Assembly (NCBI GenBank): GCA_016193465.1
Contig: JACPSE010000180.1
Coordinates: 1-58,140 of the forward strand
Reading direction: 5' to 3'
DNA: 58,140 nucleotides
Source of the DNA: Deltaproteobacteria bacterium
Lineage (GTDB): Bacteria > Desulfobacterota > Binatia > UBA9968
The position numbers and the translations under genes were made by a program. The notes under the pieces are model-generated. The model made no database searches, was not told the DNA's origin, and saw only the letters and a program-made list of their open reading frames with translations. Of the stretch, positions 1 through 56,529 are shown piece after piece. Positions within the stretch are counted from its first letter, which is position 1. Every line of letters begins with the position of its first letter.

Positions 1-836
1 GCCAGCTCGGAGCGGTACTTTTCGGTAAGTTCGTTTTCTGATCCCAGGATATCAAAGATCTGAAGCATCGCCTGGCGCGCTCCATCGTCGCGAAAGGTCC
101 GATCTTTCTTAACAATGGCTAAAAATTCGGCGAGCGCCTCTTCGTATCTTTCCCGCGCAGCCAAGGCCTGCGCCAGGCCGAAGCGCGCCTCTAAATTGCC
201 CGGATCCGACGCCAGCGTGGCCCGCAGCGCCGCTTCGTTTTGACTGGTCCCCGCCCTGATCTTCTGCCGGGCGATAAGCTGATCAGCCTCTTTTCGCTCC
301 GGGGCGTCCGGGGAGATGCTTTCGAGGAGCTCCAAAGAGTCCTTTTCATCCCCGGCTGCAATGCGGATCCGAGCTAATCCCAGCAGGGCCTTGGCATGGG
401 TGAAATCGCTTTGAAGAATTTTTTGATAGATGGCCTTCGCCTTCTCCGTCTGGCCTTCCTGCTCCAACCTTGCCGCTGCTGCGGCCTCTTGGTCCGACTC
501 CGAGGGAAGGATGCGAGAGAGCAGTTCACGTACCGCGCCTTCGGGAATGGCGCCGGTGAATTCCACCGCTACCTGGCCGTCTTTGAATACCTTTACCGCA
601 GGGATTCCCTGAATCCGAAAAAGGGCAGCCAGGTCAGGGTTCTCATCCACATTCACCTTGGCCAGGATGATCTCTCCCTTTTGCTCGTCGGCGATCCTCT
701 CCAACACCGGTCCCAAAACGCGGCAGGGAGCACACCAGGACGCCCAAAAATCCACCATCACCGGGACCTGGTTGGAGCGTTCCAGAACCTCTGTTTCGAA
801 ATCGGTCTCGCTGACCTCAATGGTCCACTGATTCAT
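1..836 (-). CDS. CnoX/YbbN-like thioredoxin-TPR protein, cut by the window edge
   Basis: The protein starts at the ATG at 836-834 and runs off the left edge after about 278 codons, so only a few C-terminal residues should be missing. Residues 1-105 form a thioredoxin domain with an intact W-C-A-P-C motif (Cys35 and Cys38), followed by the cis-proline region GIPAV. From about residue 115 the chain is helical and fits tetratricopeptide-like repeats (for example [24 protein letters not shown]). This order is typical of CnoX/YbbN co-chaperones, which hold unfolding proteins under oxidative stress and pass them to DnaK or GroEL. The two-cysteine site suggests redox activity, unlike E. coli YbbN, which keeps one of these cysteines. 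The assignment is by domain order. Confidence 0.88.
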
Positions 837-919: not shown

Positions 920-1849
920 TTAGCTTTGCCCAAGCGCCTGCGCGCCCTTTGCAGAAACAACCCATCGATCTCCAAGCTGGGCGTCGAGCTCTGGAGTCCC
1001 ATGATCTCCTTGTGCCTGAGCTGGCTCGATCCACCCTGCGCGCGCAAGGTGCTCCATAAGCATACGAATTGCATCGCTATACTTTTCGATCAGGGCATTG
1101 AGATCGATAAAATCTACCCTGCGCTTGGCCTCGTTCTGGATGTAGCACTGGATGCGCCACTCATCAAAGGAATCGGATCTCCCTCCTGGTCCAATAGCAA
1201 GTTCCGCTTGCTCCCCTGTCTTGCTGTTTAGAAAGTCCACCCCCCACCCGCTAAAGCAGTACTCCCACTCGGGGAGTTTCTTAAGACTCCCAACCTGGTT
1301 CTCATCGGTTTCGACTCGGGTCTCGAGCCACTGGTAAAGCCAGGCGTGAGGTGCGAGACCCTCTTCGGCCGCAAACCATTCCGCTAGCTCTTCTGTCCGT
1401 TTGCTAAGCTTGCCGCAGGCTCTTAAAAAAGGGAGGGCATGAGCCTTTAACTCATCTTCTTGGATCGTCTGTCGAGAGGACAGGACCAGGTTAATTCCAT
1501 TGATGATCTGCTTTTTTGAAAAAGGCTTGGTGAGATAGCCATCGGCTCCTCCACGGTAGCCCTCAGTGACATCGTCGAATTTGTCCATAGATGTCAGCAT
1601 GATTACGGGAATCGAAGAAGTCTTGGGGGATTCCTTGAGCCTCCGAATAACCTCGAGCCCGTTCATCCCCGGCATCATCCTGTCAATAATCAGAATGTCC
1701 GGGATCCTTTCGTCCAAAAAGCCAAAAACCTCCACCCCGTCGTTAGCGCACCAGACTTCGTAACCTTCTCCTTCCAGCATCGTCTTGACGATACGCACGA
1801 TGTCCGGCTCGTCATCCACTACCAAGGCGGTTCTCTGGGTCACTGCCAT
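920..1849 (-). CDS. Response regulator with an unrecognised C-terminal domain
   Basis: Residues 1-125 are a CheY-like receiver. The acidic pair Asp12/Asp13, the phospho-acceptor Asp56 (IIDRMMPGMNG), Thr86 and Lys108 (LTKPF) are all present, so phosphorylation is likely. Residues 130-309 do not resemble a DNA-binding, GGDEF or kinase output domain that I recognise. The region is rich in Trp and Glu and ends in a helical stretch (NALIEKYSDAIRMLMEHL). No histidine kinase is next to it; the upstream gene on the same strand is the OsmC-like selenoprotein, 26 bases away, so the two may be co-transcribed. The output mechanism is unknown. Confidence 0.85.
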   Translation of the reverse strand: MAVTQRTALVVDDEPDIVRIVKTMLEGEGYEVWCANDGVEVFGFLDERIPDILIIDRMMPGMNGLEVIRRLKESPKTSSIPVIMLTSMDKFDDVTEGYRGGADGYLTKPFSKKQIINGINLVLSSRQTIQEDELKAHALPFLRACGKLSKRTEELAEWFAAEEGLAPHAWLYQWLETRVETDENQVGSLKKLPEWEYCFSGWGVDFLNSKTGEQAELAIGPGGRSDSFDEWRIQCYIQNEAKRRVDFIDLNALIEKYSDAIRMLMEHLARAGWIEPAQAQGDHGTPELDAQLGDRWVVSAKGAQALGQS

Positions 1850-1875: not shown

Positions 1876-2376
1876 CTATTTTTCTCTCTTCGGAAATCCC
1901 TCAGGGTCAAAGGCGGCGCCGTTCAAAGTGAATTTGCGTTCGACCGGGACAGGATGGAGAATCGTTTGCAATACATAGCATCCATGCTCGGCGTTGCGTA
2001 CCACCGCGGCAACGCGCTCGACCGGCTCCTTGGACTCCAATTCGAGGCGGGTTTCAAAACCCAGGCTCCTCGCCTGCACTGTCTCGGCCAGGACCGAACC
2101 CTGGCTTTTGAACCTCGCCGTCACGAATACGCGGGCTTTGTCGATTTTGGTCCGCACCATTTCCCCGTACCGGGAAAGCTGGGTGAGAAGTCAGAAAGCC
2201 AGCGAGAGGCCAAAATAGGCGAGCGGCGACGGGGCACTGTTGTCACCGCCGCTACGCTCTGCCTCATCGCAGTAGACGGTAAATCCTCGCGCATGGCCTT
2301 CCTTGCGCATTTTCTCCAGAGTCCCCGCGTCAGCCTCGAGCACAATCTCTCTTTTTACCTGGAGATCCTCAGCCAT
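1876..2376 (-). CDS. OsmC-like peroxide reductase, predicted selenoprotein (TGA = Sec62)
   Basis: Translation from ATG 2376-2374, 6 bases after a GGAGGA ribosome site, gives 166 residues if the in-frame TGA at 2193-2191 is read as selenocysteine. The reading frame continues on both sides with OsmC-family sequence: APSPLAYFGLSLAF, then Sec62, then LLTQLSRYGEM. In OsmC/Ohr proteins this position is the peroxidatic cysteine at the start of the long central helix. The second family cysteine is present as Cys133 (AEHGCYVL). OsmC enzymes reduce organic hydroperoxides, using a thiol partner for recycling. A hairpin at 2177-2160, 13 bases after the TGA, fits a bacterial SECIS. A plain nonsense mutation is the alternative, but its exact position and the hairpin argue against it. 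A gene caller would give two fragments. Confidence 0.8.
2160..2177 (-). promoter_or_regulatory. Candidate bacterial SECIS hairpin in the OsmC-like gene
   Basis: On the minus strand the bases TTTCCC (2177-2172) and GGGAAA (2165-2160) form a 6-bp stem around the loop GGTACG. The loop begins with GG and lies 19 bases after the TGA. Bacterial SECIS elements bound by SelB usually have a short stem, a small loop with G in the first two positions, and about 16-37 bases between UGA and loop. The match is to that pattern, not to a specific sequence. Confidence 0.65.
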
Positions 2377-2561: not shown

Positions 2562-3620
2562 TCAGGTCTTCGCGTACTCTTTCATGTAGAGATCCAGGAG
2601 AGCAGCAAGCAGGGCGAACAGGACCGGGCCGAGGATCAGCCCCAGGACCCCGAATAGCTTAAGGCCCCCCAGGATGCTGAAAAAAAGAAAAAGGATAGGG
2701 AACTTGAGCCGGCTCCCAATAAACAGCGGCTTCAAAACATTATCAATGGTTCCCACAACACCCAGGCTCCACGCCAACAGGATCAATCCTTTAAGGTAAT
2801 CTCCCTGGATAAGGAAATACGCCGAGGCAGGAATAGAGACCAGAGTTGAGCCCCCGACGGGAAGCAAGGCGCAGAAGGCTGTCGCCACTCCCAGGAGGAG
2901 CGCGAAGGGAAGCCCCAGCAACCAGTAGGCCAATCCCGCCAAGAGCCCTTGAAGCATCGCCACGACCAGGCAGCCGTGAATAACGGCAAAAAGGGCATTG
3001 ATGATGTTTTCGAAAAGATGAGTTTGGTGCTCCGGGTCCATCGGCAAGATGCCGCGGATCTTGTCGCAAAATTCCTTGCCATCCCGCAGGAAGAAGAAGA
3101 AAGTGAAAAGGACTAGGACGAAGTTCACGACAAAAATAAAGACATCCTGGGCTATCTCTCTCGCTTGAGTGGCCAGGAACCCCGATGCCAGTTGGGCGCC
3201 CTGGAGTAAGACTTTCTTAAGATCGATCTCGAAATTAGCCAATTCGAAGGAAACCGCATGCCAAAGATTCATGAGATCTCGAACCCAAGGCTTTTCCTTC
3301 CATAGCTCCATTTCACCTCCATTCGCGAGGGTGCGTGCCGTTTTCACCAGCTCCAGCGCTTCCTCGGACAAAAACCCGACAATTCTAAATGCGGGGACGA
3401 GGACAACCAGCGTAATCAGGATCGTGATGATCAACGCCGCTAACGTGCTTCTCCCTTTCAGGAGCCTGAGCAGCCAGGCATATGCAGGGTAAACCACAAT
3501 GGCCAGGATCGCCGCCCAGGTGATGGCTTTGAGAAAAGGGCTTATGACGAGGAAGGAAAAATAGAAGATGACCAGCAAGAGGCCAAAGAAAAAGATGGTG
3601 ACAAGCCAGTTCTGATTCAC
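2562..3620 (-). CDS. AI-2E/PerM family membrane transporter
   Basis: The 352-residue protein has about eight hydrophobic segments in the AI-2E (UPF0118, PerM) layout: two N-terminal helices, a soluble stretch at about residues 85-150, then the C-terminal helical core with GLLAGLAYWLLGLPFALLLG and the family ending in FGVLGLILGPVLFALL. The start is a GTG at 3620-3618. Characterised members export autoinducer-2 or act as Na+/H+ antiporters, so the substrate cannot be read from sequence. It is convergent with nothing and stands alone between the selenoprotein unit and a 590-base gap. Confidence 0.85.
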   Translation of the reverse strand: MNQNWLVTIFFFGLLLVIFYFSFLVISPFLKAITWAAILAIVVYPAYAWLLRLLKGRSTLAALIITILITLVVLVPAFRIVGFLSEEALELVKTARTLANGGEMELWKEKPWVRDLMNLWHAVSFELANFEIDLKKVLLQGAQLASGFLATQAREIAQDVFIFVVNFVLVLFTFFFFLRDGKEFCDKIRGILPMDPEHQTHLFENIINALFAVIHGCLVVAMLQGLLAGLAYWLLGLPFALLLGVATAFCALLPVGGSTLVSIPASAYFLIQGDYLKGLILLAWSLGVVGTIDNVLKPLFIGSRLKFPILFLFFSILGGLKLFGVLGLILGPVLFALLAALLDLYMKEYAKT

Positions 3621-9500: not shown

Positions 9501-9773
9501 ATGAAAGCTGTCACAATAGAACTCCCGCCGGAACTCCTTCAGTTTCTAGGGTCTGAGGAAGAGGCCGGACGAGAGGCGAAGGTGGCCTTGGTGCTCGATC
9601 TCGTCCGCCGGGGAAAGGTCTCCAGGGCAAAGGCAGCTGAGCTGTTACAGATGTCGTTGTGGGATCTTCCGGCCCTGCTGGCGCAATATCGCATCCCCTG
9701 GTTTGACTACTCCCCCGAAGACCTCCAGCGAGACCTCGTGGCTTTGCGCTCTGGGAAAGATATAACTGAGTGA
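9501..9773 (+). CDS. UPF0175 family antitoxin
   Basis: The 90-residue protein begins with the family strand-helix MKAVTIELPPELLQFLG and continues with a helix-turn-helix-like segment (RGKVSRAKAAELLQMSLWDLPALL) and the typical end W-F-D-Y-S. UPF0175 proteins are antitoxins usually paired with a PIN-like DUF3368 toxin, and that is the next gene, overlapping by four bases (GTGA). The pair would be autoregulated by the antitoxin. Confidence 0.85.
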   Translation: MKAVTIELPPELLQFLGSEEEAGREAKVALVLDLVRRGKVSRAKAAELLQMSLWDLPALLAQYRIPWFDYSPEDLQRDLVALRSGKDITE

Positions 9774-10120
9774 TCCTCGTCCTGGACGCCAGCGCTCTTA
9801 TCACCCTTTCTCGGGTAGGCTGTCTCAATCTGCTCCGTGACCTTGCGGAAAAGGTGTATATCCCAGAAGCGGTTTATGACGAAGTAGTCAGAAGTGGCTA
9901 TGGGCGGCCGGGAAGTTTGGAGGTCGATCAGGCGGCTTGGATTTCCAAGCGCGGTGTCCATGATCAATCAGTTGTGGATCGTCTGCAGCCAGAGTTAGGG
10001 CGGGGGGAAGCAGAAGCCATCGTGTTAGCCGGAGAGTTGGAAGCAGACTTCGTCGTTCTTGACGATGCAACCCTTTATCAATCGATTCTTCGCCAGGCCG
10101 GAGAAGAAGAACCTTCATAG
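9770..10120 (+). CDS. DUF3368 PIN-like toxin, internally shortened
   Basis: The product starts at GTG 9770 inside the antitoxin stop. It shows PIN-fold acidic sites: Asp5 in LVLDASALI, Glu in GRGEAEAIVLA, and Asp in FVVLDDA. PIN toxins are Mg-dependent RNases. The protein has 116 residues where the family has about 155. After VVLDDA it jumps directly to TLYQSILRQAGE, which matches the far C-terminus of the family, so the conserved GTLGVL segment between them is missing. The deletion is in frame. It may be inactive, which would leave the antitoxin without a target. Confidence 0.75.
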   Translation: MILVLDASALITLSRVGCLNLLRDLAEKVYIPEAVYDEVVRSGYGRPGSLEVDQAAWISKRGVHDQSVVDRLQPELGRGEAEAIVLAGELEADFVVLDDATLYQSILRQAGEEEPS

Positions 10121-21216: not shown

Positions 21217-21292
21217 TGGTGGAGCCGAGGGGATTCGAACCCCCGGCCTTCGCGTTGCGAACGCGACGCTCTCCCAACTGAGCTACGGCCCC
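21217..21292 (-). tRNA. tRNA-Ala (anticodon CGC)
   Basis: The minus strand folds as a full 76-base cloverleaf including an encoded CCA end. The acceptor stem GGGGCCG/CGGCTCC has the G3-U70 pair that defines tRNA-Ala. The anticodon stem TCGCG/CGCGA holds the loop TTCGCAA with anticodon CGC, reading GCG codons. The T arm contains GGTTCGAATCC. It lies 5 bases after the galU stop on the same strand. Confidence 0.95.
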
Positions 21293-24240: not shown

Positions 24241-24825
24241 CTACTTTGCGTGCTTCTCGAACCAGGCGGCTGCGTCAGATGGCTTGATCGCTTCTTTCCC
24301 CTTCGCCCATCCAATCGGACAGACCACGCCATTCTTCTGGTGCTCCTGGAAGGCGTCCAAAAGGCGCAGGGCCTCATCGACATTGCGTCCAATGGGCAGA
24401 TTGTTGACCTGAATAGCCTCGACGACTCCCTCAGGATTAATCAGGAAGAGACCACGCACCGCCACTCCGGATGCCTCCTGAAGCACCCCGTAGTCGGCGC
24501 TCACCTTCTTGGTGAAGTCAGCAAGAAGAGGGTATTGGCATCCCTCGATCCCGCCTTTTTTGCGGGGGGTCTGGAGCCAGGCCTTGTGGGAAAACTTACT
24601 GTCCGTCGAGATCGCTACGACCCCGGAATTACGCTGCTCGAACTCCGACAACCTGTCGGAGAATTCATTGATTTCCGTAGGTCAGACGAAGGTAAAGTCC
24701 AGTGGGTAAAAGAACAGTACCAGCCACTTCCCGCGGTAATCTTTGAGCGATACGCTTTTGAAATCTCCTTTGACGACGCCGTCGAGCGTGAGCTCGGGCG
24801 CCTTCTCGCCAACACGAACTGACAT
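24241..24825 (-). CDS. Peroxiredoxin (2-Cys type), predicted selenoprotein (TGA = Sec48)
   Basis: Read from ATG 24825 after AAAGGAG, the frame gives 194 residues if TGA at 24684-24682 encodes selenocysteine. The protein then reads LVLFFYPLDFTFV, Sec48, PTEINEF, which is the invariant peroxiredoxin active site with Sec in place of the peroxidatic Cys. The Thr two residues before the site's Pro-Thr-Glu and the resolving Cys169 (NGVVCPIGW) are conserved. It reduces H2O2 and organic peroxides and is recycled by thioredoxin. Sec-containing peroxiredoxins are established in some anaerobes. A perfect 8-bp hairpin follows at SECIS distance. Without recoding, a caller would keep only a fragment starting near 24651. 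Confidence 0.88.
24643..24661 (-). promoter_or_regulatory. Candidate bacterial SECIS hairpin in the peroxiredoxin gene
   Basis: CTCCGACA (24661-24654) pairs perfectly with TGTCGGAG (24650-24643), leaving the loop GGT. The loop lies 28 bases after the TGA at 24684-24682, and starts with GG. Stem length, loop G and spacing all fit the bacterial SECIS pattern recognised by SelB. Confidence 0.75.
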
Positions 24826-43516: not shown

Positions 43517-43528
43517 CCAAATCCAACC

Positions 43529-43602
43529 AATGCAAAATTTAAATCGCAAAACGCAGAAAGCAAACTTTTTTATTTTTCAATTTGCGCTTTGCATTCTGAA
43601 TT
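43529..43602. repeat. AT-rich intergenic word repeat before ahcY
   Basis: AATGCAAA and GCAAA on the left face TTTGCGCTTTGCATT on the right, so the block is an imperfect inverted repeat built from TTTGCATT-type words. It lies between metK and ahcY, where an SAH riboswitch was looked for and not found. Confidence 0.45.
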
Positions 43603-55806: not shown

Positions 55807-56529
55807 AGGAGATGCAAACAACAAAAGACCCGTTTATTATTTCTCTATCACCAAGTCCTGTTCCAAAAGGTGGGCTACGTACAGGGAGTCATCAGGGCCA
55901 AACGACCCCGACGCCTACCGGTGGTCTTGACGCGGGAAGAGGTCCGGTCTATTCTCAGCCAACTCCAAGGCCCTGACCGGATCATGGCCATGCTGCTCTA
56001 CGGAGCAGGTCTCCGGCTTATGGAGTGTCTGCGGCTGAGAGTAAAGGACGTTGATTTCCCCACCAACCAGATTCTAATCAGGGATGGCAAAGGCCAGAAG
56101 GATCGCGTGACCATGCTGCCCGCGTCCGCCAGGGAACCGCTTCGGCAACACCTGCAAGAGGTCAAGACGCAACATCAGAAGGATCTGGAGAATCATTACG
56201 CTGGAACGTCTCTGCCGTATGCCCTGGAGCGAAAATACCCCAACGCCTCAAAAGAGTGGGCTTGGCAGTATGTTTTCCCCGCTACGAGGCTCTGCGCCGA
56301 CCCACGCTGGGGGGTCGCCCGCCGCCATCACCTTCACGAGTCCGTACTGCAGCGGTCGGTCAAGGACGCTGTGAGGAATTCCGGAATAGCGAAGCCAGCA
56401 GGCCCTGCTGGCTATCACGGCGCGAGGAAATTTTGCAGAGGTTTACTAACGGTTGAATCATGCAGGTTATTTTTCCAAATCCAAGCTGTGGAGTCGAGCG
56501 ACCTAGCCAGCAGTTTCTTTGCAGGCTAG
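55807..56529 (+). pseudogene. Truncated integron-type tyrosine recombinase (IntI-like)
   Basis: The frame is open from 55807. LLFLYHQVLF and RAKRPRRLPVVLTREEV match the core start of environmental integron integrases, box I is LLYGAGLRLMECLRL, and the integron-specific insert ALERKYPNASKEWAWQYVFPA is present. After the family stretch RHHLHESVLQRSVKDAV, the box II region is only vaguely kept (H-x-x-R in YHGARKF), and the catalytic Tyr part is lost. The N-terminal DNA-binding domain is also missing. It must be inactive. It lies on the same strand as the cassette-like genes that follow. Confidence 0.75.

Follow-up and report, generated by a model that had tools for sequence, protein, structure and literature searches.

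A probable OsmC-like selenoprotein gene with a covarying SECIS hairpin in a Binatia-type deltaproteobacterium

Introduction

OsmC-like selenoproteins that carry selenocysteine (Sec) in a UxxT motif are known from two metagenome studies, of the Sargasso Sea in 2005 (PMC1088965) and of the GOS data in 2008 (PMC2398784), and a 2026 review (PMC13188914) includes them. The remark in an earlier note on the DNA analysed here, that such proteins have been seen mainly in metagenome surveys, is a fair one. The family is thus already known and has an NCBIfam model; the gene described below is a good further member of it and no discovery. It shares with the Sargasso Sea and GOS examples its OsmC family membership, the placement of Sec in UxxT and a SECIS element directly downstream, but its host is a Binatia-type 'deltaproteobacterium', whereas theirs is a marine metagenome contig. 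A search of one literature library found no report on Binatota selenoproteins or Binatia selenocysteine. The present analysis adds a conserved chromosomal locus, a SECIS element tested by covariation and a linkage to a thioredoxin-TPR gene.

The Ohr/OsmC thiol peroxidases have the same fold and the same two redox positions (U62 and C133 in the present protein). In Xylella Ohr, Arg19 and Glu51 are catalytic, and the Ohr/OsmC family also includes proteins of unknown activity, such as YhfA (PMC5962072). The best sequence match in the PDB is 3cje, an OsmC-like protein from Jannaschia sp. (E = 6.6e-19 with a profile), with both Cys aligned; it has Cys where the gene described here has Sec. To our knowledge, the activity of the 3cje protein has not been established.

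Results

An OsmC-family reading frame with one in-frame TGA

The whole stretch of DNA analysed, referred to hereafter as the window, is 58,140 nt long. The features of the gene under study are as follows.

1876..2376 (-): OsmC-related selenoprotein gene (predicted), 166 codons plus stop; matches NF041052 and PF02566; a single frame when TGA is read as U
2191..2193 (-): in-frame TGA, predicted Sec62 codon of the UxxT motif; invariant in close homologues, Cys in others
1978..1980 (-): Cys133 codon, proposed resolving Cys; invariant in alignment A1; position computed from the gene start
2161..2177 (-): SECIS hairpin 19 nt past the TGA, with a 6-bp stem and a GGUAC loop; tested by covariation and against a synonymous-codon null

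The TGA at codon 62 was the sole interruption of the frame at 2376-1876 (-), which closed with a stop codon at 1878-1876 and was preceded by a Shine-Dalgarno-like GGAGG 8 nt 5' of the ATG. Translation with TGA as U gave 166 residues with a single U, at position 62. This protein scored 170.4 bits against the NCBIfam model NF041052, "OsmC-related (seleno)protein", well above the curated cut-off of 95 bits, and its active-site motif, U62-L-L-T65, is the published UxxT motif; score and predicted active-site Sec both place it in that family. The OsmC domain (PF02566, 47.6 bits) spanned both sides of the TGA.

A match was found in 36 of the 58 related genomes (the 58 include the genome under study), and the close matches carried TGA at the aligned place. 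Twenty loci came from named MAGs, partly from the same genomes, labelled 'Deltaproteobacteria', Candidatus Binatia and Chloroflexi. Among the close homologues from Binatia and Chloroflexi, about 35 distinct sequences, the TGA did not vary, and it recurred in distant paralogues of about 30-40% identity, some of them in tandem to the main gene. Cys occupied the corresponding column in four homologues (L170-L173) and in a paralogue in the same genome (C97). In an alignment of 33 sequences (A1), U62 and C133 were invariant and C36 was nearly so. Among the closest relatives, dN was far below dS on either side of the TGA (upstream, for example, dN 0.04-0.10 with dS at least 0.8).

The earlier note had proposed that the TGA replaces the catalytic Cys codon of an otherwise intact OsmC-family gene, that both sides of it stay in one frame and keep family residues, and that the second Cys, 133, is retained. 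All of this was confirmed. In a wider sample of the phylum, the NF041052 cut-off was exceeded in only two of 148 genomes, this one included; the Sec form is rare there.

Several further OsmC-type sequences were observed. A second OsmC selenoprotein paralogue, about 36% identical, stood in tandem at three loci (L063, L155 and L156) and had a TGA and a hairpin of its own. Frameshifted copies of the gene, reflecting decay or assembly error, were seen in two relatives (L071 5061-5529 and L070 8001-8476). Another OsmC-type match in the same genome (G000:C238:640-963, L001) had an in-frame TGA according to one search and none according to another.

A covarying SECIS hairpin downstream of the TGA

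The hairpin with GG opening its loop that the earlier note had placed 19 nt past the TGA was recovered at 2177-2161 (-), where the stem UUUCCC/GGGGAA closes the loop GGUAC with a folding energy of -9.6 kcal/mol. It lies within the bSECIS limits given in PMC13188914. When the folding energy of the single 59-nt strand was assessed, the hairpin was unexceptional (z = -0.18). Since this single-strand score is uninformative, comparative tests were used.

Across 29 distinct Sec sequences, 93.1% of cells were paired as compared with 68.8% in shuffles, changes on both sides of the hairpin occurred in 37 cells as compared with 13.2, and the covariation score was 0.602 as compared with 0.196. None of 500 shuffles, which ignore relatedness, reached the observed pairing, double-change or covariation values, and slid registers all gave far lower values, although the structure was derived from the tested sequences, which favours this register over slid ones. 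Two of the five covariation measures, the number of pairs with a double change and that of further pair types, were unremarkable. Under a synonymous-codon null, the mean z was -1.86 for 43 Sec genes as compared with -0.33 for Cys genes, a small group (n = 4) of which one member, L170, still folds well; in most Cys genes the hairpin was weaker or missing. We conclude that the hairpin is a SECIS element of standard bacterial type that covaries far beyond chance.

Fold and possible activity

The protein was modelled with AF2 (pLDDT 87.9). The model shows an OsmC fold in which the central helix carries residue 62, and Cys133 lies close to the C-terminus, where a helix breaks. Foldseek matched the model to OsmC/Ohr structures, and it combines the OsmC fold with two redox residues. 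In contrast to the Ohr/OsmC thiol peroxidases, the protein matched neither the Ohr nor the OsmC equivalog model even at E up to 10, its matches being NF041052 and TIGR03549 only. Moreover, judged by sequence, neither an invariant or near-invariant Arg nor a conserved acidic residue some 10 positions ahead of Sec, the spacing of Glu51, was present in A1. The name 'hydroperoxide reductase' in the earlier note was therefore not borne out, the protein lying outside the Ohr and OsmC equivalog models and the Ohr Arg/Glu pair not being evident. Because of these two results, and of precedents such as YhfA, we keep the name OsmC-like redox selenoprotein; a peroxidase activity may be inferred for it.

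A thioredoxin-TPR gene downstream

The genes that flank the selenoprotein gene are the following.

3..836 (-): thioredoxin-TPR (CnoX/YbbN-like) gene with CxxC; PF00085 plus TPR; runs off the window edge
920..1849 (-): response-regulator gene, PF00072; lies between the selenoprotein and thioredoxin-TPR genes
2562..3620 (-): AI-2E family transporter gene, PF01594; upstream here and in many relatives

A thioredoxin-TPR gene lay downstream in 34 fetched loci, or 23 distinct loci after removal of records fetched twice, and the CxxC of its product was present wherever that part aligned. The intervening response regulator was shared with only one congener among the loci examined (L024/L052, 67.9% identity). 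The thioredoxin context described in the earlier note recurs at homologous loci, and this gene order makes the thioredoxin-TPR protein the best candidate for a reductant or partner of the selenoprotein.

Elsewhere in the window, a tRNA-Ala (CGC) at 21217-21292 (-) was the sole RNA gene found by tRNA and Rfam scans, and a tyrosine recombinase gene of the phage integrase family at 55870-56529 (+) resembled an integron integrase, with an apparently disturbed C-terminus.

Other selenoprotein genes in the same genome

The second selenoprotein that the earlier note had seen nearby was confirmed as a peroxiredoxin.

24241-24822 (-): 2-Cys peroxiredoxin, second selenoprotein gene; its TGA (24684-24682), the U of TFVUPTE, stands at the peroxidatic position

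Seven AhpC-TSA matches in the genome had one TGA each. In the five that were read out, the TGA fell at the active site (WUPYC, FVUPTE, GGUQQE, PGUIRE and WUPKC). A DUF3179-like gene with an in-frame TGA (TWUPLC; L143, G000:C192) was also observed, adjoining a Prx-like selenoprotein gene (WUPYC).

Sec machinery in the genome and its relatives

The draft assembly of this genome (G000; 4.5 Mb in 238 contigs) is rated 100% complete. Searches of it with selA, selB and selD models gave only matches below cut-off, the best SelB match looking like EF-Tu in its length (402 aa) and its tRNA neighbours. No tRNA-Sec was found in the draft; the best ARAGORN candidates, among the 150 of 473 first-look candidates that were scored, were ordinary tRNAs. 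Comparison of the draft with a 12.7-kb stretch carrying a congener's sel operon found no operon fragment. In congeners G001 and G003, the same tRNA search (RF01852) detected selC with a score of 78 bits. The sel genes were present and clustered in all three congeners, with selC adjacent in G001 and G003; in G003, selA, selB, selD and selC lay together within 4.8 kb. The earlier note had named a genome without selB or selC as counter-evidence to its reading: selA, selB, selC and selD are absent from the draft, and the congeners have the operon.

SelB was found above cut-off in 48 of the 58 relatives. Among these are G028, assembled in one contig, and G033, in four; both carry the OsmC selenoprotein gene. 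Wherever the gene occurred without a full SelB (G000, G008, G013, G022, G023 and G025), the assembly was a draft in about 210 contigs or more; in G022, SelB was partial. Since the sel genes lie together in the congeners, one gap would remove all four. Because of this clustering, the presence of SelB in most relatives and the intactness of the other selenoprotein genes, an assembly gap is the best explanation of the missing genes, and the sel operon is most probably in the cell. A repeat with many copies in G000 sits in the selB-selD gap of G003 (L103 9195-9265) and may explain why an assembly would break there.

The window itself has a copy of this repeat, at 43527-43599; it is AT-rich, imperfectly palindromic and about 70 bp long. 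Placing the missing operon by synteny was also tried. The only strong G000 match to the L103 flank, C197, was rejected as a locus marker because it is a toxin-antitoxin-like pair, which also adjoins selC in G003. At 9501-10120 (+) of the window, a UPF0175 gene and a short PIN-like gene overlap and resemble a toxin-antitoxin pair.

Alternatives to Sec insertion

The absence of sel genes and fragments from a draft rated 100% complete would fit a recently silenced gene, in which the lineage has lost the sel operon and UGA terminates translation, leaving only a 61-residue fragment. Against this, several selenoprotein genes of the same genome are intact, with TGA at the active site, the frame and SECIS of the OsmC gene are intact as well, the clustered sel genes of the congeners could all be taken by a single gap, and other fragmented drafts that carry the gene likewise lack a full SelB. 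We regard silencing as unlikely. The same missing genes could point to a non-canonical route, such as a suppressor tRNA, that inserts Cys or some other residue at the UGA. A covarying SECIS, however, implies SelB-dependent decoding in the lineage, and the best tRNA-Sec candidates given to ARAGORN, from the 150 of 473 that were scored, proved to be ordinary tRNAs, so that we give this route very little probability. Equally improbable is the broader proposition that the Sec machinery is truly absent, the conserved UGAs being decoded otherwise and many redox genes with a UGA being kept intact.

Termination at the UGA followed by re-initiation at the ATG at 2160, which would yield two polypeptides, draws some support from a G-rich stretch directly 5' of that ATG. 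Conserved protein positions such as Q66 lie between the TGA and the ATG, however, and the Cys homologues are one continuous protein; a split gene was rejected on these conserved residues and is extremely unlikely. An artefact of sequencing or assembly that turned a Cys codon into TGA drew no support and has next to no probability either, given that the about 35 homologues with the same TGA were independently assembled and the SECIS covaries; this and an old pseudogene were both rejected by the conservation among homologues. The curated family match, the invariant TGA, the Cys homologues, the covarying SECIS and the sel operon of the congeners all support the selenoprotein reading put forward in the earlier note. 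On this comparative sequence evidence, 2376-1876 (-) very probably encodes a bona fide selenoprotein of the NF041052 family, in which UGA is read through as Sec62.

Discussion

We infer that SelB with Sec-tRNA(Sec) would read the UGA as Sec62. Within the OsmC fold, the selenolate of Sec62 could then attack an oxidised substrate, either a hydroperoxide or another compound, and Cys133 would resolve the product as a selenenyl-sulfide. A protein with a dithiol would reduce this again, and the natural candidate is the thioredoxin-TPR protein, which has a CxxC and whose gene lies downstream.

Because the sel genes of the congeners share one stretch of about 5 kb, their absence from a '100% complete' draft is not by itself a refutation of a selenoprotein. 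The present locus documents a member of the rarely discussed OsmC-like selenoprotein family as a gene conserved in Binatia chromosomes, and the candidate thioredoxin-TPR partner makes the function of this OsmC branch testable.
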